Source of the DNA: Methanomassiliicoccales archaeon
Lineage (GTDB): Archaea; Thermoplasmatota; Thermoplasmata; Methanomassiliicoccales; UBA472
NCBI GenBank assembly: GCA_036504055.1
Contig: DASXVU010000012.1
Coordinates: forward strand, 1 to 64,000
Length of the DNA: 64,000 nucleotides
Direction of reading: 5' to 3'
Position 1 is the stretch's first letter, and every line of letters begins with the position of its first letter. Of this stretch, positions 28,104 through 41,376 are shown in pieces. The notes under the pieces are model-generated. The model ran no database searches. It worked only from the letters and a program-made list of their open reading frames with translations, and was not told the origin of the DNA. The position numbers and the translations under genes were made by a program.

Positions 28104-28243
28104 GGGACGTTCATTCTGCTCGACATTATTTAATGTTGGTGGACCTCCAATCCGCTCGGCATCGACCATCAGACATTATACGCTGGACATCATTCTACGA
28201 ACCTTTAAGTGGCCTGAGCCCCTTGAAATCCCTAGGCCTTCAG

Positions 28244-28921
28244 ATGAAACCAGATGTCACCGACGATCAGATGTCGAGATGGGACAGCACCTATTCCTCG
28301 AACCAAAATTTCTTCGGAATGGAACCCAGCCAGCTAGGGATGGACTCTCTGATCGTTTTCCGAGAGCATAGGGCAATGAAGATCCTGGAACTTGGATGTG
28401 GGCAGGGCCGAGACACGCTCTATCTGGCGCAGAACGGGATGGAGGTGACCGCAATGGACTATTCCGAGACCGGTCTGTGTCAGGTGAAAGAGAAGGCGGT
28501 CTCGATGAAGGTAGGAAGATCGATCGTCCTGAAGGTCGGGGATGCCAGGGAAGGGCTCCCATTCGAGGATGGCACTTTTGACGGATGCTTTTCCCATATG
28601 TTCTTCACCATGCAGTTCCCGGAGAAGGAGCTTTCATACATCTTCACCGAGGTCCTGAGGGTCCTGAGGCCGGGTGGCCTGAACGTGTACTCGGTCCGCA
28701 ATGTGAACGATCCGCAATTCGGCAAGGGCAAACATTTCGGCGAGGACATGTGGCAAAATCCTCTGGGCTTTGTGGTGCACTTCTTCAGCGAGGACAAGGT
28801 GAGGAGACTGGCGACCGGATATGACGTACTCTTGATCAAGGAGTTCGAAGACCCCTCTCCGCCGTTCACCAAGAAGCTCTTCGAGGTGGTGCTGGAGAAA
28901 CCGGGAATATCGGAAAAATGA
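28244..28921 (+). CDS. Class I SAM-dependent methyltransferase
   Basis: 225 residues from the ATG at 28244. A TATA-like TTTAAG at about 28203 fits this start better than the GTG/TTG-led extension to 28133. Motif I is KILELGCGQGRDTLYLA. The acidic residue is in VTAMDYSE, and post-I GDAREGLPFEDGTFDG is typical. The family includes thiol, arsenite and small-molecule methyltransferases; TehB-like and tellurite-resistance forms look similar. Substrate unknown. Confidence 0.75.
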   Translation: MKPDVTDDQMSRWDSTYSSNQNFFGMEPSQLGMDSLIVFREHRAMKILELGCGQGRDTLYLAQNGMEVTAMDYSETGLCQVKEKAVSMKVGRSIVLKVGDAREGLPFEDGTFDGCFSHMFFTMQFPEKELSYIFTEVLRVLRPGGLNVYSVRNVNDPQFGKGKHFGEDMWQNPLGFVVHFFSEDKVRRLATGYDVLLIKEFEDPSPPFTKKLFEVVLEKPGISEK

Positions 28922-28959: not shown

Positions 28960-30327
28960 TTATTTCTTACTCCTCCTCAGCATGAACACTGCCAGGACGA
29001 CAACGATGGCGATGACGACGATCGCCGCAATGGCTGTTATCAACAGCAGGTCAGTGCTCCCGCTGGAACCCGGGCTCTGGCTCGTGCCGGCCGCGGAAGA
29101 AGTGTCAACCTCCAACCCCACCACCTGGGTTGAGAAGTGCGGGATGTAGACCAAGACCTTCCAGTTCTTAACCTGGTCGATCACCACGAACTTCGCATCG
29201 GCGTTGCCTGTACCGTTCATGGCCAGTACCTGGTCCAATGACATCCTGGCTATCTTGGCCCCGTTGAGCAGTGCCACGATCTTGTCGGATGTCGTGTTCA
29301 GGCTCTGTGTGTCCACCACGAACTCCATGACCTTGGCGTTCGAAGAGGACGAATTGACCTCGATCTCCACATGACCAGCGCTGTTCGAGCTGACCCGCAT
29401 CGTGGCATCCTCGTACTCCTGCTCCTCTGTCATCACGCTGCCGTTCCTCATGACCATGGAAAGCTGGCCAGCGATCTTTCCGGAGGCGATCGACTGCATG
29501 ATCTTGTTATCATCAACGGCATTGGCCAAATCGGGGTTGCCGGTCAGGAAGGACACCTGTCCCTTGGTGGCCATGGCCATGGTCTTGTTGTTGATCTTCT
29601 CGATCTTGAGCGTTCCTTTGTCCACGATTATCATCCCGGTCAGGTTCCCTTTGGTCATGGTCACCATGCCGTCATGATATCCGGAACGGTTGTCGTAACC
29701 GACGCTCCATGAGTCGTTGCATATGAAATGCACCATCTGGTTCGTCCCGTTAAGGACGTATTTCATCATGGCCGTAGGGTTGTTGTGCATGGTGATGTCC
29801 ACGGAGGTACCGGTCACCTTCATGACCGAACCTACCTTGGTGATGCTGTTCGGGACCAAACCCATACAGTCCACGGAGTCAAACACCTTGGTGGATAGGC
29901 CGGAATGGACGACGGTATAATTTTCATAACTTCCGTCGGTCTGGTTGAAGTCACATCTGACAAATCCGCCCTCCAGGTGGGACCCATTGGCGGAGAGCTG
30001 ACCGAACATGTCCTTGTTCATGCTCTCGTTCATCATGTCGTTCACCTCCCGGTCCATCTGACTGGTGCTCCTGGACAGATTGTGCTCGTAGCACATCCCG
30101 TCAACCGAATCGCTCCAGTTCCGTGAATCCGAACTGTAGCTCCTGTTCTGCATCCAGTCATTGCTGTTGCTGTCACCCATATGTCCCATGTCCAAGGGGG
30201 CGATCTTGCCCATGGTCGAGAGTATCCCCACTGAAAATGGCATGGAAACGGATAGAACGACCAGGGTCACGATCAGTCCGGCAAGGCAATTCTTGAAATT
30301 GATGTGTCCCATAGATATCCGTGGCAT
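28960..30327 (-). CDS. Cell-surface protein with signal peptide and C-terminal membrane anchor
   Basis: 455 residues from the ATG at 30327 (MPRISMGHINF). The N-terminal hydrophobic stretch (CLAGLIVTLVVLSVSMPFSVG) is a signal peptide or anchor. The C-terminus is a single helix (LLLITAIAAIVVIAIVVVLAVFML) with tail RRSKK. The first ~110 mature residues are rich in Met, Asn, Ser and Asp (MGHMGDSNSNDWMQN...). A beta-rich body with many N-x-S/T sites follows. No catalytic motif or named family. A surface or S-layer-associated role is inferred from the topology only. Confidence 0.6.
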   Translation of the reverse strand: MPRISMGHINFKNCLAGLIVTLVVLSVSMPFSVGILSTMGKIAPLDMGHMGDSNSNDWMQNRSYSSDSRNWSDSVDGMCYEHNLSRSTSQMDREVNDMMNESMNKDMFGQLSANGSHLEGGFVRCDFNQTDGSYENYTVVHSGLSTKVFDSVDCMGLVPNSITKVGSVMKVTGTSVDITMHNNPTAMMKYVLNGTNQMVHFICNDSWSVGYDNRSGYHDGMVTMTKGNLTGMIIVDKGTLKIEKINNKTMAMATKGQVSFLTGNPDLANAVDDNKIMQSIASGKIAGQLSMVMRNGSVMTEEQEYEDATMRVSSNSAGHVEIEVNSSSSNAKVMEFVVDTQSLNTTSDKIVALLNGAKIARMSLDQVLAMNGTGNADAKFVVIDQVKNWKVLVYIPHFSTQVVGLEVDTSSAAGTSQSPGSSGSTDLLLITAIAAIVVIAIVVVLAVFMLRRSKK

Positions 30328-30496
30328 TCTAGCTCGCGGTAATGAAAAAGATGAGGCAATGAAAAAGCGGGACCAGTGGTAAAAAGGTGAGATATGACCG
30401 TTCGAGCCTGACTGGCGCATCGTTTTCTTTCATCTTATGTCTGCTTGCGTCCAGCCCGAGCAAATCACCGATCTGAACCGACCTCTGCCATTAGGT

Positions 30497-31792
30497 TCAT
30501 TCAGATCTTGCGTTCGCACACCAGTAAGTGACCTTATGCGCCCGTATCGCCGTGTTCTGGTCGCCAATGATCTCGTAACTGGCAGGGGGCTCTTCCGAGC
30601 TGGGTTTGGTCTCGAGCAGGTACCTTCCTTTCACGGAACTATGGGAGGAGAGGTTCTTGTCGATGGTCTCCAGGTCAAGCGATGATCGCTTTTCGGTACC
30701 GGAACGCTCAACGACCACTCCGAGGTCCTTGTTGGCGTAATGCTCTTCGACGATCCTGATGGTCCAGTCAATGGATATCGGGGTCACCGAGGGGTTCCGG
30801 TCGCGGATCAACCAACCCTCTCCCGCCCGGGTGAGCTCACCCCGTCCAGGAATGCCTTCGAAATCGGCAAGCATCTCTGTAATCTTCTTTGGGGACAGCC
30901 CGACCGCCGTCGCCACTCCCGCCGCTGCCGATACCGCCGTGGTGTATGAAGGTGCCAGGTAGGTCGCTGGCATAGTAAATGGGAAATCTCCTTTCTTAAC
31001 GTTGAGCCAGCACTTGGGCCTGTTGCCGAACTTCATGCCCTTATCGAACGAGACGTTGATGTCCCCGAACTCCCCGAACTCCACCACCTGGGTTCCCTTG
31101 GGGATGAAGACCTTCCACATATTGATCTCTGGATGCCGCAACACCAGCGTGCCCTTGGTCGCCTTTACCATCTGGATTATTCCGTCCACCGCCCGGCGGG
31201 TACCGGCAGCAATTGGGTAATTGTCCCCCGACGCCGTGGTCACCACCCCTATTTCGGCCAGCCCCGTCCCGCCCAGGTTGCACTCGAACACTCCCCTGGT
31301 CCAGTCCCCCTCCATGAACGACAGTCTCAACAACGTCGCCGGTGAGATCATGGCATCCCTTTCCAGAAGCTGCACCGTCTCCCCAACGGAGAACAGGCCG
31401 CGCGAGGTCAGCAACAGGACCTTTTCGCCTTTCTTTCGCAACATGTGCGAGATGGCGTGGCAGGCGGATGTCTTGGCCTTCGTTCCGGTGACCTCGACGG
31501 TCGGAAAACCGAAGTGAGCCAGTTCTCCCACCGCTCTATGGAATGTGATCCTTTGCTCAAATTTCGCCCGCCCCAGATAATGGTCGGGGCAATGGACCGG
31601 AAGGACAGCCAGATCGTACTTCTTCGAGGGCGTCGTTCTCGCGACCGCTATGCCTTCGTTCCGTAGGTGGTCGACCATGTACTGTTCCGCGGTGCCGTAG
31701 ATGTCAACCGCGGTCACCTCCTCGCCACGCGACCGATAGGTGAGGGCGATGATATCGCCTCCATGGGTCAGGTCGAGAACAAGCACGTTCAT
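30497..31792 (-). CDS. CfbE/MurF-like amide ligase, second copy (paralog of the F430 ligase)
   Basis: 431 residues. It aligns along its full length with the CfbE at 39.6-40.9 kb: the start NVLVLDLTHGGD vs KVLILDLTHGGG, PVHCPDHYL vs PVHCPDLFF, the P-loop TGTKAKTSACH vs TGAVAKTSSCH, LLLTSRGLFSVGET vs LLLTSRGLVSMGDT, and FEGIPGRGEL vs FEGVPGRGEV. CfbE amidates Ni-sirohydrochlorin a,c-diamide side chains in F430 synthesis. This copy lies apart from the cfb operon with its own TATA-like element (near 31831-31845). It could act on another carboxylate of F430 or a modified F430, or be a spare; the substrate is unknown. Confidence 0.75.
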   Translation of the reverse strand: MNVLVLDLTHGGDIIALTYRSRGEEVTAVDIYGTAEQYMVDHLRNEGIAVARTTPSKKYDLAVLPVHCPDHYLGRAKFEQRITFHRAVGELAHFGFPTVEVTGTKAKTSACHAISHMLRKKGEKVLLLTSRGLFSVGETVQLLERDAMISPATLLRLSFMEGDWTRGVFECNLGGTGLAEIGVVTTASGDNYPIAAGTRRAVDGIIQMVKATKGTLVLRHPEINMWKVFIPKGTQVVEFGEFGDINVSFDKGMKFGNRPKCWLNVKKGDFPFTMPATYLAPSYTTAVSAAAGVATAVGLSPKKITEMLADFEGIPGRGELTRAGEGWLIRDRNPSVTPISIDWTIRIVEEHYANKDLGVVVERSGTEKRSSLDLETIDKNLSSHSSVKGRYLLETKPSSEEPPASYEIIGDQNTAIRAHKVTYWCANARSE

Positions 31793-31853
31793 TCAGAGCA
31801 TCTCCAGTCGGTCACGATGGTCCTGCCTAGTTAAAATCTTAATCGCGGCCTGA

Positions 31854-33263
31854 CTATTTGGAGAAGACCTCGAAGCCCAGGCTCTTGCCCAGGTCCTTGG
31901 CGGTGCGGGGAACGTTGGCCATCTGACCTCCGCCCTCATATTGGATCCAATAGGTGCGTGACAGCTCGTCCAGAGCCTCCGATGGCGTTACACCGGACAT
32001 GGATCCCTCGGAAAGCATCGCCTCTATCCTGGTGTATGCCCTGATCGAAAGGAATGCCGTGAACATATGGCCGTCCATGGTCTCGCGGTCCACCAGGAAC
32101 TCCCGGTCCTGACCCATGGTCCTGCGGTGGTCCGCGAAAAGCCGGTCGATGGCGTCCCTTCTGCGGTACAGTCGATATATGTCCTCCTCGGTCACTTCCT
32201 TGTCCGAGGCCAACATGATGCATCCCGCGATGTGGCTCCGGTCCATGAAATTCCTCTCTGCAAGCCGGTTCTCATCCAGCATGCGATAGAGGGTCATCTC
32301 CTCCTCCATCTTGAGCTGGGCATCCTGGTATAGGTACAGCCACATGCCCTTGTGCTGCCTTTTTCCGCACTTGATGAGATGCTTGTCGTGGAAGAAGTGC
32401 CGGACCAGCGGGATGTCCAGGTCATAGAGGTCGCTGTCCCGGTTGACCGGCAGGACAAAGGAGGTCCTTTGCTGCATGAGTAGGGAAACCAGATCCTCCG
32501 AGAAGCTGTCCCTCTCCAGAACCAAAGTGATCCCTTCGCCCCCGATCTCACCAAGGAGCTTGCGCATTGGTCCAAGCTCCCCGACGGGATTGGAAAGCAT
32601 CCGCACCATGGTCGGCGCCCCGGTATCGGCCGAGAATATCATGGCGAGGTTTATTCTCTGCATGAGCCGGGACTCTTCCGGACTGCGGTCAATGAGGTCG
32701 GTCTGCTCTGAACGGGTAAAATAGGCCGACATGCCATAGACGATCTCGTCACCGGACACACACATGCCGTTGAACACCTTGGCCTGTGCTTTCTTATCCT
32801 GGCCGACCCGATGAAGCATCTCGGACAGCCTCTTGGGCGTCAAGTCCGGTTTGATCGAATGGATGTTATACAGCTTGTCCCAGGCATTCTGTGCTCTGCG
32901 CAAGGGAACATCCCCAAGTACTCTGACCATGGAAAGTGCGTACAGTTCCTGCCAATCATCGGGGAAGGCCGATCTAAGCTGTTCCATCATGTCCGACATG
33001 GAGCGGTTGAGCAGGACGGCGTTGCCATACTGTTTGACCACCCTCTCAGCTGTGGGGACCAGCATGCTCTCCTTCTCTTGAAGGCCATTCCTCTCATCCA
33101 GTCGTCCCAGATACTTAGACCGCTTCTTTCGTTTCTTCTCTTCCTTGTCCCATATGGTGGTGGAGCGATACACGTAGTAGGCCGAACCGATCCTCTTGAT
33201 CTCAAGCCCCTTAGCGCCCTGTTCTCGCTGTCCCTTGAGCCAATTGACCGCCCACTCGTCCAT
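31854..33263 (-). mobile_element. IS1634/IS4-like transposase, possibly degenerate or domesticated
   Basis: 469 residues with the layout of IS1634-type DDE transposases. A basic N-terminus (EEKKRKKRSKYLG) precedes the core: ILVYG-like IVYGMSAYFT, TLVLERDSFSEDLVSLLMQ, and YRRRDAIDRLFADHRRTMG leading into GHMFTAFLSIRAY. In active members the first block usually has D-x-T and the last an E (Y..R..IE..F); here these positions read G-M-S and D. I found no terminal inverted repeats or target duplications around it, and it has its own TATA-like element. So it may be inactive or have another use. Confidence 0.65.
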
Positions 33264-33346
33264 TAGGAAAGGTATAGGGTATAAATGATATTAAACAATT
33301 GTCACGCGATTATGATATCCAGCATCAAAACATATAGTTAGACATC

Positions 33347-33434: not shown

Positions 33435-34376
33435 ATGGCAACTTCAAGGAAATTGATGGCACTGACCGTTATCGCGGTCCTGTTGGTGGCCGGTCTCGGC
33501 GCGGTCGTAATACTCTCGATGAACAACAACAAGAACGATACGAAACCAGTGGACCAGTCGACGACGGTCAGTGTGGTCGATGACCGGGGGGTCAATGTGA
33601 CGGTGCCGAAATACCCGCAGCACATACTATCGCTGGGAACGGCCTTCACCGAGTGCCTGTATGCGATAGGCGCCCAGGACCAGATCGCTGGCGTTGACAG
33701 CACAAGCAAGTACCCAGCGGAGGTTGCTAACAAGACCAATATCGGAAGTGGCTATACCATCAACAAAGAGAGCGTGACCATGTTGCAGCCCGACCTGGTC
33801 ATAATGTGGAAGTCCTACACCACGACGTTGAAGACCCTGACCGAAATGAACTTGACCGTCCTTGCTTTCGACCCCCAGTCGGTGGCCGACGTCGAGAAGA
33901 TGATCAATCTGCTTGGCAATGTGACCGGCAAGACTGGTGAGGCGAACTTGGTCGTCACCGATATGCAGACCAGGATAACTGAGGTGCAGCAGAAGGTCGC
34001 CAACACCACCAGCAGGCCCAACGTCTACATGGAGCTGCTCAGCTCCGGCGGTAAATCCCCCGGTCCGGGCACCATGACCGACGACGTCATCCGTCTTTCC
34101 GGAGGATATAACATCAACGCAAACACCTCCGCCAGGTATACCAAGCTGAATGCTGAGTATGTCGTCGGGCAAGATCCGAAATTCATCGTCCTGGAAACTC
34201 AGAACACCAAGACCAATGACGATGTGAAGAGCACCAGCGGATATGGAACGATCAGCGCAGTGGTCAACGACAAGATAATGCGGGTAGACGGTGCATGGCT
34301 CACTGCCTCGCCAAGGATCGTCCTGGCGGTCGAGGAGTTCGCCTCCTGGTTCCACCCGGAGCTATTCCCCGCTTAA
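33435..34376 (+). CDS. ABC transporter substrate-binding protein (BtuF/FecB family)
   Basis: 313 residues. Residues 1-29 are an N-terminal hydrophobic signal/anchor (KLMALTVIAVLLVAGLGAVVIL). The mature part is a helical-backbone binding fold: VVDDRGVNVTVPKYPQHILSLG, then LQPDLVIMW and a long linking helix. The family delivers cobalamin, iron-siderophores, haem or similar chelates to BtuC/FecC permeases. The operator-like repeats it shares with the F430 operon suggest a tetrapyrrole or metal-chelate cargo; the ligand itself cannot be read. First gene of a three-gene importer. Confidence 0.82.
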   Translation: MATSRKLMALTVIAVLLVAGLGAVVILSMNNNKNDTKPVDQSTTVSVVDDRGVNVTVPKYPQHILSLGTAFTECLYAIGAQDQIAGVDSTSKYPAEVANKTNIGSGYTINKESVTMLQPDLVIMWKSYTTTLKTLTEMNLTVLAFDPQSVADVEKMINLLGNVTGKTGEANLVVTDMQTRITEVQQKVANTTSRPNVYMELLSSGGKSPGPGTMTDDVIRLSGGYNINANTSARYTKLNAEYVVGQDPKFIVLETQNTKTNDDVKSTSGYGTISAVVNDKIMRVDGAWLTASPRIVLAVEEFASWFHPELFPA

Positions 34377-34512
34377 GAATGATTGAACGGATGGGCGCGA
34401 TCAAGGCCGCATCGTGGAGCTTTCCTTGCCTCCTTTTTCCACGGTGTCGTCCTACCGCCCCACTCCCTTTTTCGCCACACTTTATGAATGAGTACGCGTT
34501 TGCAGGTTGCGC

Positions 34513-35589
34513 ATGACCATGGACCAGAAGGGCATCGAGGAGATGCATTCAAAGAAGCTGCACCGTTGGTGGCTCACCATGGTGTTCCTGACCCTCGCGC
34601 TCTTCGGTGTCGCCATCATGGCGATATGTATCGGATCGATCAACATCGCGCCGGACCGGGTATTTGGCGCGATATTCTCCAATGATCTGATCAAGACAAT
34701 AACTGGCCAGAAGATCAAAGACCCGATCAACTCGATCGTTCTGGAGATCCGTATGCCGAGGATCGTCATCGCCTCACTCGTCGGAGGATCGCTGGCAGTG
34801 GCAGGAACGGCCATGCAGGGGATCTTCCGAAACCCGATGGCCTCGCCTTACATTCTCGGTCTTTCCTCCGGAGCGGCATTCGGTGCCTCACTGGCGATAG
34901 TTCTAGGATTTTCCGTCGTCAGCGGCTCATTCGCCATTCCGGCGATGGCCTTCATCTTCTGTTTCATCACGCTGTTCATCGTCTATGGGATATCCGCCAC
35001 CAAGATGGGCGTCCCGGTGACCACTCTGCTTCTGGCAGGGATCGCCGTCGGTTCCCTATTTACCGCCCTGGTCTCGCTGATGAAGTTCTTCTCCGGCGAC
35101 AATCTCAGCTCCGTCGTCTACTGGATGATGGGCGGTCTGGCGGACAGCAACTGGTCTCAGGTGTTTGTCACCCTGCCATTGGTGGTACTAGGCTCAGCGG
35201 CCCTGATGTTCTACAGCAAGGAGCTCAACCTCATGATGGTCGGCGAGGAGCACGCCACCAATCTTGGCGTGAACGTCAAGCGCTCCCGCCTCATGATACT
35301 GGTTCTCTCGTCGCTGGTCACTGCGGCAGCTGTATCGGTAAGCGGCATCATCGGTTTTGTGGGTCTGATCATTCCACACACCTTGCGCATCATACTGGGG
35401 CCGGACAATCGCATACTGATGCCCGCCTCCATCATTGGAGGGGCGGCGTTCATGATCGGAATGGACACCATTGCCAGGACAATCATTTCGCCTTCCGAGC
35501 TGCCGGTAGGGATAATCACAGCCATAATCGGTGCGCCGTTCTTCCTCTGGCTGCTACGTGCGCGCAAACGCGACATATGGGGGTGGTGA
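34513..35589 (+). CDS. ABC transporter permease (BtuC/FecCD family)
   Basis: 358 residues from the ATG at 34513; a TTG 6 bases and an ATG 6 bases to either side are alternatives. It has about ten hydrophobic helices. LEIRMPRIVIASLVGGSLAVAGTAMQGIFRNPMASPYILGLSSGAAFGA is the FecCD family core, split here across several helices. The coupling region is SGIIGFVGLIIPHTLR. It forms the membrane channel with the neighbouring ATPase. A TATA-like CTTTATGAA at about 34480 may give it an extra promoter. Confidence 0.88.
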   Translation: MTMDQKGIEEMHSKKLHRWWLTMVFLTLALFGVAIMAICIGSINIAPDRVFGAIFSNDLIKTITGQKIKDPINSIVLEIRMPRIVIASLVGGSLAVAGTAMQGIFRNPMASPYILGLSSGAAFGASLAIVLGFSVVSGSFAIPAMAFIFCFITLFIVYGISATKMGVPVTTLLLAGIAVGSLFTALVSLMKFFSGDNLSSVVYWMMGGLADSNWSQVFVTLPLVVLGSAALMFYSKELNLMMVGEEHATNLGVNVKRSRLMILVLSSLVTAAAVSVSGIIGFVGLIIPHTLRIILGPDNRILMPASIIGGAAFMIGMDTIARTIISPSELPVGIITAIIGAPFFLWLLRARKRDIWGW

Positions 35590-35599
35590 TCTGAAGATC

Positions 35600-36397
35600 A
35601 TGGTGGAAGGGGTCACCTTCAACTACACGAGCGTTCCGGTGCTGGACGGGGTTTCGTTCGATGCCCATGGCGGTGAGGTCATCGGCATCATCGGTCACAA
35701 CGGTTGCGGCAAGACGACAATGTTGAAATGCATCAACCTGGCGCTCCATCCCGGTGCCGGTATCGTCAAGTTCGACGGCAAGGATACGCTTTCAATGTCG
35801 CGCAAGGACATCGCCAAAGAGGTCGGCGTGGTAGCGCAGAACACCGTCATCACCTTCCCCTTCACAGTGCTGGACATGGTCCTGATGGGGCGGTTCCCTT
35901 CCTTGGAAAGGTTCGCTAACGAGTCCAAAGGCGACCTGAGGATCGCCATGGATGCGATGGAGGCCACCAGCGTAACCTATCTGGCCTCAAGGCCGATCGA
36001 TGAGATCAGCGGCGGAGAACGGCAGAGAGTGATCATCGCCCGGGCATTGGCGCAGCAGCCGAGGGCGTTGCTCCTGGACGAGCCGACGCTCCATCTGGAC
36101 ATCAACCACCAGTTCGAGCTGATGGAGCTTATCCGTTCACTGGCCAAAGACAAGGGACTTCTGGTCATAATCGTCTCCCACGACCTGAACCTCGCTGCAA
36201 GGTATTGTGATAAGCTTATAGCATTGGACGAAGGGAAGATAGCAGCGGCCGGATCAGTGGGGGAGGTGCTCACTCCGGAAAACCTTGCCAGGGTGTTCAA
36301 CATCAATGCCGATGTCAGGTTCGAAAAGCGTGTGAACGCCTATGAGATAACGATTCTGGGCACGATCCCGAGGAAATCCGGATCAGACCCGCTCTAG
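35600..36397 (+). CDS. ABC transporter ATP-binding protein (BtuD/FecE family)
   Basis: 265 residues from the ATG at 35600, 10 bases after the permease stop, with GGTGGTGAT ahead. Walker A is GHNGCGKTT, the signature is [12 protein letters not shown], Walker B is [12 protein letters not shown] and the H-loop is [10 protein letters not shown]. It powers import by the BtuC-type permease. The C-terminus overlaps the convergent cfbB by 15 bases. Confidence 0.9.
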
Positions 36398-37729
36398 GCA
36401 GCTCTCGACGATCCGAAGTCCCCATTCCTTGTTGGCGAGCGCGTGCTGATGCATATAGGTGCCAATGGTCCTTCTCTTGACCAGTCCATCATGCCTTCCG
36501 TCAACGCCAGTGCCTCTTGTAACATCGAACGCGTAGGGACCATCTGGCTGGGGGACGAGTTTCGAGTAATGGAACTCATGACCTTTAACGGTCCTGCCCG
36601 GGAATAGGAAGTTTTCCCCGGTTCCTTCGCTGATGACATATGACAGGCCCTGCCTTTGTTCGGTAAGTACCGCATCGTGATCAAAGACTCCGGCCATCCT
36701 ACCCTTCGCCGCCCCGTTAGATATCGAACGGCACAGGGTCATCATCCCTCCGCACTCTCCATAGATCGTACACCCTTCTGAAGACTTTGCCTCAATACCG
36801 TCCAGGAAGTCACGGTTCGCGGAAAGGGTTTCCAAGTGCATCTCCGGGTATCCGCCCCCAAGATAATAGCCGTCCGCGTCCGGTAAGGTGTCTCCCTTCA
36901 AAGGGCTGAACATTACCAGTTCCGCACCTGCCGCTTGGAGGGATTCCAGGTTCTCCTGGTAGTAGAAGGAGTAGGCGCTGTCGCGCGGCACCCCTATTCT
37001 CACGCCTCTGTTCTCCGCTTCTGGGAAAGGTGCATCAATTGGTAGATCTAGCCACCTCCCCTTTTCCGAGATCTCCAGAATTGGGTCCATATCGATGTCC
37101 CTGACCAGCCCTTCCACGTCGGCGATGGCCTTGGAGGCATCGATGTCGTCGGGGGTTACCAAGCCGAGATGGCGTTCCGCCAGTCTATTGCTGTCCCGTT
37201 CGATGGTGCCGACCACCTTGGTATCGGTCAGCGATTCCACGGCCTCGGTAGCCTTCTGCCGGTGTCTTTCCCCGCTCACCTGGTTCAGAATGACGCCCTC
37301 TATCCGGACCTCCGGGTCAAGCATCTTAAATCCCATTACAACTGCTGCAGCACTCTTTGCCAGGCTGCGGGCGTTGACCACCAGAATGACCGATGCGTCA
37401 AGGAGCTTCGCGATCTCTGCGGTGCTTCCGGTGTCTCCGGTCGCGGACAGCCCGTCATACAGACCACGGACCCCCTCGATGATCGCGATATCGGCATCCT
37501 GGGTCGACCACCCGAACAGATTGCCTATGGTGGCTTTGTCCATGAAGAACGAATCCAGGTTCCTCGAGGGTCGTCCGGAAGCGAGGGTATGGAACATCGG
37601 GTCGATGAAATCGGGCCCGACCTTGAACGCCTGGACCGAATAGCGCTTGGATAGTCTGGATATGATGCCGGTCGCGATCGTGGTCTTCCCCACACCGCTC
37701 CCCGCTCCGGCAATGACCAGCCTTCTCAT
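36383..37729 (-). CDS. cfbB: Ni-sirohydrochlorin a,c-diamide synthase (CfbB; CbiA family)
   Basis: 448 residues. The N-terminal domain has P-loop [13 protein letters not shown] and the C-terminal glutamine-amidotransferase domain has the nucleophile Cys in [11 protein letters not shown], with GGGYPE before it. The family amidates the a and c acetates of Ni-sirohydrochlorin (CfbB) or cobyrinate (CbiA). Position as last gene of cfbA-E-D-C-B, overlapping cfbC by 4 bases, favours CfbB. It is the only such protein in the window, so it may also serve cobalamin synthesis. Confidence 0.9.
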
Positions 37730-38523
37730 GTCGATCCTGTTCTCTTTCTGAGCAATTCCCTGATATCCTCAGGGGCCATCGGTGACGGTATGTTCTTTTT
37801 CTTGTTCTCCAGTATGCGCTCGCCGAGCCTCCTGAACCTCTTCGCCTGCTCGCTGTCCGGGGCGCCCTCGATGACGGTCCTGCCCAGGTTCTCGCAATCG
37901 CGCACGACCCTATCCCGCGGAACGAAGCCGACCAGCTTACTGCCTATCCTTTCGGCGAATTCGGAGACCGACGATTCCTCATCGTCCACTTCCCGCGAGT
38001 TGCACACCATGCCTCCCAGGTCGACACCCAGGTTGTTCAGTCCCCGACATATGTTGTTCGCGGCGTACAGCGAAAGGTACTCTCCCGAGGTCACGATGAA
38101 CACCTCGTTGGCGAACCCTTCCCTCAGGGGTGCGGCGAAACCACCGCAGACGACGTCCCCGGGGACGTCATAGATGATGATGTCGATCCGGTCGTCGAAG
38201 AACTCCTTGTAAAGGGCGTGGACCGCCACGATGATCCCCCTGCCGGCGCATCCGACTCCGGCCAGCGGCCCTCCTATCTCGACGCATTTGACGCCTTTGA
38301 ATCCATCCGCTACGGAATAGTCCTCATCCTTTCCGCCTTCCTTCTTTTGTTCCAGGAAAGTGGGGATCTTCCTGCCGCCAAGGAGGGTCATCGAACCGTC
38401 CGCCTTCGGATCGCATCCGACATACCAGGTGTTCAATCCCCTTTCCGCGAAACCGGCAGCCAGGTTCGCAGATATAGTGGATTTGCCTATGCCTCCCTTT
38501 CCGTAGATGGCGATCTGTCTCAT
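37726..38523 (-). CDS. cfbC: Ni-sirohydrochlorin a,c-diamide reductive cyclase, reductase subunit
   Basis: 265 residues, NifH-like. P-loop [15 protein letters not shown]. The two Cys that hold the shared 4Fe-4S cluster are in GVGCAGRG and GDVVCGGFA, and the Switch II DVPGD is present. It passes low-potential electrons, with ATP hydrolysis, to CfbD for the six-electron reduction and ring closure that makes seco-F430. It overlaps cfbD by 4 bases. The N-terminus, lacking other nif genes, rules out nitrogenase. Confidence 0.93.
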
Positions 38524-39605
38524 CGGTAATCCTTCTCCACGACCTCTCGGATGGTGTTGCCAAGCTCGGAATCGATGATCGAATGTGTGCTCATGACATC
38601 GGCATGGGTGGAGATCTCGCCCACCGAGTTCTGGAACCCCTTGTCGAGGTAGTTCCTCAACTCCCTCGGTTGGTCCGTGACCAGGACGTCGTCCCGTCTC
38701 AACCTCGGTAATGAATGCGGCAATCCGGCGATTATGCGCACCTCAGCATCGACCGCATCGAGCATATCTGCAGCCTTTTCTCCCGCTATCGGATATTCGT
38801 CCAGGCCACCGGTGATCTGGATGTCGGTGATGCCAGATCCTCCAAGGTCTCTCAGGATGTCTTCGCTGTACCTTCTGATCCTCGGGAGTCCCACGGTTCT
38901 GTCCAAGTTCGCAATGCAGACCGTCCTTCCCCCCAATTTCCTCTTGGCCATCTCGACAGCGCGAAAGATATCAGCAAACCCATACGCCGTCTCCTTCTTG
39001 GCATTGAGCGTCACCGCTATGGTCTGTCCTTCCCTCAAAGCCTTGGTTATCTTCAGCGCCACTGCCAGCTTGGTAGCCCCGTTCGACGGTTCCAGATAGG
39101 TCCTGCTGGTGATCCCCCGGTCCTTTTCGATGGCGGTCGCCTTGGTGAGCATGGCCTTCTGCCGTTCGCATTCATGGACCGGTATGAGACCTTTGCTGGC
39201 CGCCACCTCCAACACCCTGATGGCCCCGTTGGTGTTGGCTCCGGAGCAGCCGTGGACGTCTACCGGAAGGACCATGGCCCTGATGCCCGCCTTCCTGACC
39301 GCACTGTCCAGGTTCTCCCCTATGATCATGCTGGCACAGGTCCCTATGATACCGATTGTCTTGGGGGTGAAATCCCTGTCCACCGTCCTTAGGACATCGA
39401 TCAGGTTCTCCTCCGCTCCGAAAATGAGGTCGTTCTCCTGCATTCCAGTGGTCATGACCTTGACGCCCGCCTCCTCCAGCCTACGGGATGCCATGAAACC
39501 GCATCCCGCCGGTCCGTGAAGTATGATCAGGTCAACGTCCAGGTCCCTGAGGGTGTACATGGCCGCTATGATGGGGTTCGGGCGCGGATGGAGGACCCGG
39601 TTCAT
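38520..39605 (-). CDS. cfbD: Ni-sirohydrochlorin a,c-diamide reductive cyclase, catalytic subunit
   Basis: 361 residues from the ATG at 39605, which overlaps the cfbE stop (ATGA). NifD-like but short, with the Cys positions in HGPAGCGFM and GTCASMIIG and a further Cys in VHGCSGANT. It accepts electrons from CfbC and reduces the Ni-tetrapyrrole. Homologous to NifD/ChlN, but without P-cluster/FeMo features. Confidence 0.92.
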   Translation of the reverse strand: MNRVLHPRPNPIIAAMYTLRDLDVDLIILHGPAGCGFMASRRLEEAGVKVMTTGMQENDLIFGAEENLIDVLRTVDRDFTPKTIGIIGTCASMIIGENLDSAVRKAGIRAMVLPVDVHGCSGANTNGAIRVLEVAASKGLIPVHECERQKAMLTKATAIEKDRGITSRTYLEPSNGATKLAVALKITKALREGQTIAVTLNAKKETAYGFADIFRAVEMAKRKLGGRTVCIANLDRTVGLPRIRRYSEDILRDLGGSGITDIQITGGLDEYPIAGEKAADMLDAVDAEVRIIAGLPHSLPRLRRDDVLVTDQPRELRNYLDKGFQNSVGEISTHADVMSTHSIIDSELGNTIREVVEKDYR

Positions 39606-40891
39606 GTATAACCCTCTTTGATACACCAGAGCATGACCCCTTGAGATCTGGGGATCTCATTTTTATCCATGACTCTGATCATCGTCCCGGGGATATCCTT
39701 GGACGTGCCCCTGTCGATGACATAGGCCGCCGTTAGACAATGCGAGCGACTAACCACATCAGCGATCTCGTCCAGGTCCATCTTTTCGCACACCTTGACG
39801 GTCACTGGATCGACCACCAGGGACAGTTCCTTCACGCCATAATATTCTTCAAGCATTCTGATGTTCCATTCGATCGATCTGGCCGAGACGCCCGGATTGC
39901 GTTCCCTGATGACATCGGCCTCACCTTCCTTATGCACCTCCCCTCTTCCTGGCACACCTTCGAAACTGGATAGCGCTTCGGCTATGAACTTCGGTTCCGC
40001 TCCAGCAGCAAATGCCAGCGCGGCGGCCGCATTCAATCCGGTGAGATAACTTGGCGCAAGGAACTTGCTGGAGAGTGTGAAATGAAGGTCATGTCCGTTA
40101 ACCGTCAAAATGGCCGGGGTCCTCTCTCCGATCCGTAATCCCCCTTCGATGTTCACCCGAACATCACCGCCAGCGCCGAAGGTTGTCACCTCAGCTTCCC
40201 TTGGCATCTCTCCCTCGATGATAGGTTTGTCCTCCGCGGCAATGACGATCCGATGCTTTGCAGAGCGGATCATCTGCATCTTGCCGGCATTGGAAGAACG
40301 GGTACCTGCGGCGATCGGATATTCCCCGCTGAGATTGGTCACCGTGCCTATGTCAGCCAGCCCAGTCCCTCCCAGGCTGCACTCGAATATCCCGTAGTCC
40401 CATTCCCCTTTCATTTTCGATAGCCTCAGGATGGTGGCCGGGGCAATGGACGCCTTCTCCTCCAGAATCTCAATGGTATCGCCCATGGATACCAGACCGC
40501 GAGATGTCAAAAGCAACACCCTTTTTCCCATGGAATGGAGGATATGTGCCAGGATATGGCATGATGAGGTCTTCGCCACTGCTCCCGTGACCTCGATGAT
40601 CGGATAGCCGAAACGGGCAAGTTCCCCGACCGCTTGGTGGTGGGTGAGCCTCCGTTCATAGGATGCCCCGCGGAAGAACAGGTCCGGACAGTGGACCGGG
40701 GACACTGCCAGATCGAACGTCTCGTCCGGGGTCTCTTCCAAGACCCTCACCTTGAGCGAACTCAATCTGGATCTGATTCCCGGCGGGCAGTTGCGGTATA
40801 TGTCGATAGCGGTGACCTCATGACCATTCTCGGCATAGGTCTCTGCCAGGACCCCACCCCCGTGGGTCAGGTCCAGTATAAGGACCTTCAC
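39602..40891 (-). CDS. cfbE: Coenzyme F430 synthetase (seco-F430 MurF-like ligase)
   Basis: 429 residues from the GTG at 40891, 2 bases after the cfbA stop; the longer frame reaches into cfbA. Mur-ligase P-loop region is EVTGAVAKTSSCH. PVHCPDLFFRG and EGVPGRGEVHKEGE are shared with the paralog at 30.5-31.8 kb. CfbE closes the carbocyclic F ring of 15,17-3-seco-F430-17-3-acid with ATP to make F430. Operon context with cfbA, D, C and B makes the call strong. Confidence 0.9.
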   Translation of the reverse strand: MKVLILDLTHGGGVLAETYAENGHEVTAIDIYRNCPPGIRSRLSSLKVRVLEETPDETFDLAVSPVHCPDLFFRGASYERRLTHHQAVGELARFGYPIIEVTGAVAKTSSCHILAHILHSMGKRVLLLTSRGLVSMGDTIEILEEKASIAPATILRLSKMKGEWDYGIFECSLGGTGLADIGTVTNLSGEYPIAAGTRSSNAGKMQMIRSAKHRIVIAAEDKPIIEGEMPREAEVTTFGAGGDVRVNIEGGLRIGERTPAILTVNGHDLHFTLSSKFLAPSYLTGLNAAAALAFAAGAEPKFIAEALSSFEGVPGRGEVHKEGEADVIRERNPGVSARSIEWNIRMLEEYYGVKELSLVVDPVTVKVCEKMDLDEIADVVSRSHCLTAAYVIDRGTSKDIPGTMIRVMDKNEIPRSQGVMLWCIKEGYT

Positions 40892-40893
40892 TT

Positions 40894-41292
40894 TCAGCCC
40901 TTCTTGGCCCGCTCCCTGATGCGATCGGAGAGTATATCGGCTATCCTCGGGTCCGCCCCGATCGGTCCGCAATATCGGAAGGTTATTTCCTTTCCTTCCA
41001 CCGTCATCTTTCCGCCTTTTTCGTCCTTACCCAATCCCAGGACCCCAGGTATGTCCTCGGTCAGATGGATCCCGCTTGCCAGGAAGCAGGGCTGAACATA
41101 GATCGTGTCCACTCCCTTTGCCACCAAGACCTTGATACCGTCCATGATGTCCGGCGTGTTGATCTGCATGAACCCGGCTGTGACCGGGCCGAACTCCCGC
41201 TTCTTGTCCAGGATGTTTGCCATCTCAACGACTAGGTCCTTGTTGTACTGCAGTTTGCTTCCGTGTCCGACGATAAGTACTCCGGTTTTCAT
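40894..41292 (-). CDS. cfbA: Sirohydrochlorin nickel/cobalt chelatase (CfbA/CbiX-small)
   Basis: 132 residues from the ATG at 41292 with GAGGTGG ahead; the short, single-domain size is that of archaeal CfbA/CbiXS. Motifs are LIVGHGSKL (the catalytic His) and VQPCFLASGIHLTEDIP (second His). It inserts Ni2+ (F430) or Co2+ (cobalamin) into sirohydrochlorin, so it probably serves both arms here. It is the first gene of the cfb operon; the upstream region carries operator-like TTAGGGAATA repeats. Confidence 0.92.
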   Translation of the reverse strand: MKTGVLIVGHGSKLQYNKDLVVEMANILDKKREFGPVTAGFMQINTPDIMDGIKVLVAKGVDTIYVQPCFLASGIHLTEDIPGVLGLGKDEKGGKMTVEGKEITFRYCGPIGADPRIADILSDRIRERAKKG

Positions 41293-41376
41293 TCCTTCCA
41301 CCTCATTATTCAGTAAATTACCCCATAATTTACGGTAAGTTAGTGAGAGATGCACTGTTGTGGATATAATGATGGA

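Follow-up and report, generated by a model that had tools for sequence, protein, structure and literature searches.

A diverged CfbE paralogue outside the F430 operon of a Methanomassiliicoccales archaeon

CfbE performs the last step to F430, the cofactor of all biological methane formation. In the Methanomassiliicoccales genome considered here (G000), a second CfbE-like protein, called CfbE2 below, is encoded outside the cfb operon, which raises the question of what a second copy might do beside a complete pathway. A sequence-only reading of the locus had treated both proteins as amide ligases, and this description has to be corrected: CfbE uses ATP to activate a propionate and forms the carbocyclic (cyclohexanone) ring F, the amidation enzyme being CfbB (PMC7242693). 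Ring closure presumably proceeds via an acyl phosphate.

A second CfbE-like gene and its neighbourhood

The window, that is, the whole stretch of 64,000 nucleotides that was analysed, represents contig C12 of a 2.66-Mb genome that is 99.9% complete. The features relevant to the argument are the following:

28133..28921, plus strand: SAM methyltransferase gene, kept next to cfb/suf genes in several relatives (neighbourhood comparison)
30497..31792, minus strand: CfbE2, diverged CfbE paralogue with a Mur-ligase fold, 431 aa (ORF, profile match, BLASTP, motifs, AlphaFold2, Foldseek)
31178..31180, minus strand: codon 205 of CfbE2, Ile in place of Lys, the equivalent of MurD Lys198 (reference comparison, profile alignment)
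31793..31835, minus strand: leader of CfbE2, with GGAG 9 nt ahead of the start codon and, beside the end of the insertion sequence, an AT-rich box (TTTTAAC) (sequence reading)
31836..33316, minus strand: IS1634-type insertion sequence with putative ends, transposase at 31854-33263 (NF033559 at 62 bits, under its cut-off; terminal inverted repeat)
33435..36397, plus strand: FecBCD/BtuFCD-like ABC importer between CfbE2 and cfbB, ORFs 33435-34376, 34507-35589 and 35531-36397 (ORFs; profile match of the substrate-binding protein)
36383..37729, minus strand: cfbB (profile match)
37726..38523, minus strand: cfbC (profile match)
38520..39626, minus strand: cfbD (profile match)
39602..40891, minus strand: canonical operon cfbE, with K205 and the other catalytic-site residues retained (profile match, BLASTP, column comparison)
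40894..41355, minus strand: cfbA (profile match)

The open reading frame of CfbE2 starts with ATG and shows the normal codon-position GC of a coding sequence. The protein matches the NCBIfam profile NF033197 (F430_CfbE) with 229.3 bits (E 8e-68), under the curated equivalog cut-off of 250 bits, which the operon CfbE exceeds with 292 bits. As the sequence-only reading had claimed, CfbE2 aligns with CfbE throughout (45% identity over 425 residues with 2 gap positions, BLASTP E 6e-128), and the motifs HCPD (region 67-70), TGTKAKT (P-loop, 102-108) and GIPGRGE (313-319) are all present. At an E-value of 0.001, Pfam returned no match for CfbE2 or for the operon CfbE; a phmmer search of PDB sequences with CfbE2 also returned none, and the CfbE profile did match PDB entries. 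Searching by sequence brought up no solved structure of a CfbE.

A single complete cfbA-E-D-C-B cluster exists in the genome, followed by cobalamin genes and by a divergent hemA-B-L-C-D set. CfbE2 does lie outside this operon, as had been read from the sequence, though merely 4.6 kb from cfbB and 8 kb from the canonical CfbE, the IS1634-type transposase and the FecBCD-like transporter being located between CfbE2 and cfbB. The gene arrangement of relatives runs hem operon, cfbA-E-D-C-B, (methyltransferase), glyoxalase-like gene, (HdrA-like gene), sufC and sufB. Here, it is interrupted between cfbB and the methyltransferase-GlxI-HdrA-SufCB genes by an inserted block that consists of the FecBCD-like importer, the IS1634-type transposase, CfbE2 and a gene for a membrane protein. 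The methyltransferase adjoins cfb/suf genes in G135, G001, G130, G136 and G126, and is a candidate enzyme of tetrapyrrole or metal-related methylation. The gene at 28960-30420, adjoining CfbE2, codes for a predicted surface protein that is rich in Met, has a membrane anchor at its C-terminus and matched no family. FecCD/FecE relatives have been observed near the cfb clusters of G133 and G005. As for the importer's binding protein, its nearest relatives in G001, G133 and G130 lie away from cfb genes, and no consistent linkage to cfb was seen. Elsewhere in the genome, contigs C30 and C6 (loci L103 and L105-L109) carry several more nitrogenase-type NifD/K/E/N-like ORFs together with a NifH/CfbC-like gene, which make up one nitrogenase cluster and another pair of nitrogenase-like genes.

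The terminal inverted repeat of the IS1634-type element matches in 11 of 12 positions; no target-site duplication was seen at its ends, which could not be fixed. The putative end on the upstream side of CfbE2 is about 43 bp from the start codon. Within this short leader, GGAG resembles a Shine-Dalgarno sequence and TTTTAAC lies about 40 nt upstream of the ATG, so that a promoter of its own is plausible for CfbE2 from the sequence.

Age and conserved residues of CfbE2

A CfbE match was obtained in 106 of the 147 genomes of the order Methanomassiliicoccales, to which CfbE is confined in a 390-genome sample of the phylum, and G000 is the only one of the 147 with two full-length diverged copies. 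The suggestion that CfbE2 might belong to a separate clade represented in other genomes is not supported, since no orthologue was found among these 147 genomes by a search whose prefilter could let very divergent genes escape; for the same reason there is no gene co-occurrence to draw on. A scan of genome contigs with CfbE2 as sole query gave no match, and one based on an alignment brought up other CfbEs, of which the nearest has about 42% identity.

In the trees, CfbE2 is sister to the operon CfbE (support 93/88 and 92/89) on a branch of 0.95-1.09 changes per site. Because of this branch length of about one change per site and the 45% identity, CfbE2 is an old copy and not a recent or near-identical duplicate; AU tests, however, did not reject other placements in the tree (p 0.19-0.44). 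That CfbE2 was acquired from a relative carrying a lone CfbE is not favoured by its sister position to the operon copy (93/88), subject to the same AU values. An assembly or strain artefact is ruled out because the two copies share a single contig of 80 kb and the genome is 99.9% complete. A contrasting case is G104, where two CfbE copies are 86% identical, lie on contigs of 3.6 and 5.9 kb and look like strain variants. Among other irregular loci, the CfbE of L013 (G014) has one in-frame TGA and L119 (UBA345) has runs of N beside cfbB, both probably assembly faults. A second mcr operon as the reason for a second ligase has been discarded as well, the genome having one mcrA only.

The active site of CfbE2 was assessed from alignments with 99 reference CfbEs, reaching to Methanobrevibacter and Methanomethylicota, in which 40 columns are at least 90% conserved. 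CfbE2 retains 34 of these columns and departs from six (G106A, S148M, S172N, K205I, G335S and C369R), against a reference median of 0. G106A is common to CfbE2 and its own operon CfbE; the other five are changed in CfbE2 and not in the operon copy. Position 205 is Lys in all 99 references, and the remaining four columns are conserved in at least 94 of them; position 369, within the KVCEK motif, is Cys in 97 and a gap in two. On the other hand, CfbE2 keeps the P-loop K107, E170, H67, GxPGR (G316-R317) and N333 of RNP. Loss of ATP-site residues, which the sequence-only reading had named as evidence against a second working ligase, is thus found in part: the P-loop is intact, and K205 is changed along with S148, S172, G335 and C369. 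CfbE2 is like CfbE in full-length homology, HCPD, P-loop, GxPGRGE and RNP, and differs in its position outside the operon, in its score under the cut-off and in the loss of K205, S148, S172, G335 and C369.

The CfbE profile aligns K205 with the AK lysine of Thermotoga maritima MurE and, over residues 202-332 against 195-318 of Escherichia coli MurD, with Lys198. This lysine is carbamoylated and essential in MurD, MurE and MurF, and is compensated by a Glu in MurC and Mpl (PMC3060825). An AlphaFold2 model of CfbE2 (pLDDT 91.8), in which residues 366-369 of the lost KVCEK loop are the sole segment under 50, has a predicted three-domain Mur fold, and its best Foldseek matches are MurC, MurF, MurD and MurE (E 1.9e-17 to MurC). 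CfbE2 shares this predicted fold and the ATP loop with the amide ligases MurD, MurE and MurF, although at about 15% identity and without the carbamoylated lysine that they need. MurC and Mpl, which are top Foldseek matches, are Mur ligases that work without carbamoyl-lysine, but their compensating Glu was not seen at the expected place beside E170 in CfbE2, and their substrate domain is different. The loss of K205 alone consequently does not prove CfbE2 inactive.

Lone CfbEs and mcrA genomes without HemA, HemB and CfbD

Another source of comparison is provided by four other genomes with mcrA in which CfbE occurs without CfbD: G134 (locus L068), G001 (L071), G129 (L180) and G040 (L179). The first, third and fourth lack HemA, HemB and CfbD, and G001 lacks CfbD/CfbC. 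In two of these four lone CfbEs, those of G129 and G040, K205 is replaced by Met; judged from their separate tree branches, these losses are independent of each other. The G040 protein sits on an accelerated branch (1.13 vs 0.16 in its sister) and also carries S172A, so that position 172, beside the Mg ligand E170, is changed along with K205 there as it is in CfbE2 (S172N). Altogether, K205 has been lost in 3 of 5 off-operon CfbEs vs none of 99 references (Fisher p 5e-5, a post hoc test that ignores relatedness and serves as a guide only). Read most simply, the pattern means that K205 is retained where the de novo pathway requires ring-F closure and is dispensable elsewhere.

Three of the lone CfbEs belong to a larger group. 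Of the mcrA-bearing relatives, at least 16 (G134, G129, G130, G136, G139, G142, G145, G126, G040, G048, G087, G095, G111, G062, G007 and G026; loci L205-L210 and L068) showed no HemA above the cut-off, no HemB and no CfbD, absences that are based on MAGs of which several are 95-99% complete; CfbE is also missing in all except G134, G129 and G040. In G142, G145, G139, G130 and G136, the contig continues unbroken to either side of sufC-sufB; cfbA, cfbC, cfbD and cfbE are absent from it and it has no runs of N, which excludes an assembly gap at this site. The loss is not total, given that HemD-like and CobB/CfbB-like genes are still present in some of the 16. HemBCD have been reported missing from some Methanomassiliicoccales whose genomes are unfinished (PMC8351635). 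The present genomes hint at a loss of de novo tetrapyrrole and F430 synthesis, with salvage of F430 (or a precursor) or another route in its place.

Possible roles of CfbE2

The reading that we favour, with somewhat less than even confidence, is that CfbE2 is an old, intact CfbE paralogue that has departed from the canonical function, being accessory or near-inactive. In the mechanism that we infer, the operon CfbE would perform ring-F closure and so cover the pathway, and CfbE2 would still bind ATP together with a tetrapyrrole acid of the F430 type. As it lacks the lysine by which KCX-type Mur ligases organise their second Mg2+, it would not form the acyl phosphate and close ring F in the normal way. 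It might instead bind, chaperone or modulate seco-F430, F430 or CfbE itself. Normal ring closure by CfbE2 is doubtful on the alignments because K205 and other invariant residues are lost, and the accessory role is preferred since a folded ATP-loop protein has been kept while the metal-organising lysine is missing. Long selection on CfbE2 is argued from its full-length 45% identity, its frame intact after about one change per site and its coding-type GC. Against this reading stand the 34 of 40 conserved columns, P-loop included, that CfbE2 retains, and the non-catalytic role would in any case be a deduction from sequence. A precedent exists in PAP11, a MurE-like subunit of the plastid RNA polymerase, which is a Mur-ligase homologue that serves outside cell-wall synthesis and not as a ligase; it is among the top PDB matches of the CfbE profile and belongs to a system unrelated to CfbE2. 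No CfbE paralogue with an altered active site was met with in the literature consulted.

A second, possible but more doubtful explanation is a ligase of altered specificity, in which CfbE2, with its metal site rearranged, would make an acyl phosphate on a different carboxylate, either of F430 or seco-F430 or of some related tetrapyrrole, giving a modified cofactor. CfbE2 retains the ATP loop and E170 as well as most of the fold, and S172N together with K205I (S172A in G040) is what a rearranged metal site might show. However, the F430 variants on record bear 17(2) thio- or methyl groups and not new acyl bonds, no orthologue was found in the 147 genomes of the order, and the MurC-like Glu is not in its expected place. 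Several F430 variants still have no assigned maker (PMC11256747); a role of CfbE2 in a variant F430 is conceivable.

It is unlikely that CfbE2 is a back-up, salvage or repair enzyme that does the reaction of CfbE on imported or ring-F-opened F430. The adjoining FecBCD-like importer would agree with such a role, and so would the lone CfbEs of mcrA relatives without HemA, HemB and CfbD (or, in G001, without CfbD/CfbC); but the nearest relatives of the importer's binding protein are away from cfb genes, this genome makes F430 de novo by its gene content, and K205, the residue most specific to canonical CfbE, is lost in CfbE2 as in two of the four lone CfbEs. Extended to CfbE2 together with the lone CfbEs of mcrA-bearing genomes without HemA, HemB and CfbD, the idea of a salvage or repair route in which F430 or its ring-F-open form is imported and then bound or re-closed by a CfbE-like protein seems rather improbable. 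Least likely is a redundant, drifting duplicate, which the insertion sequence may have separated from its promoter: the losses on catalytic columns, the element's end so near the gene and the similar loss on the accelerated G040 branch would fit, but the 431-aa frame is intact at such divergence with normal codon-position GC and a high-confidence fold, and its branch is little longer than that of the operon copy (0.95 vs 0.79).

CfbE2 and the two other CfbEs without K205 are of interest as natural mutants, pointing to what residues the closure of ring F requires. The same comparison has shown HemA, HemB and CfbD to be missing from many mcrA-bearing Methanomassiliicoccales genomes; if these organisms make methane, their F430 must come from neighbours or by an undescribed route. 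All isolated methanogens make F430 (PMC11362671), and non-makers, if confirmed in these uncultured relatives, would extend the picture beyond that statement.
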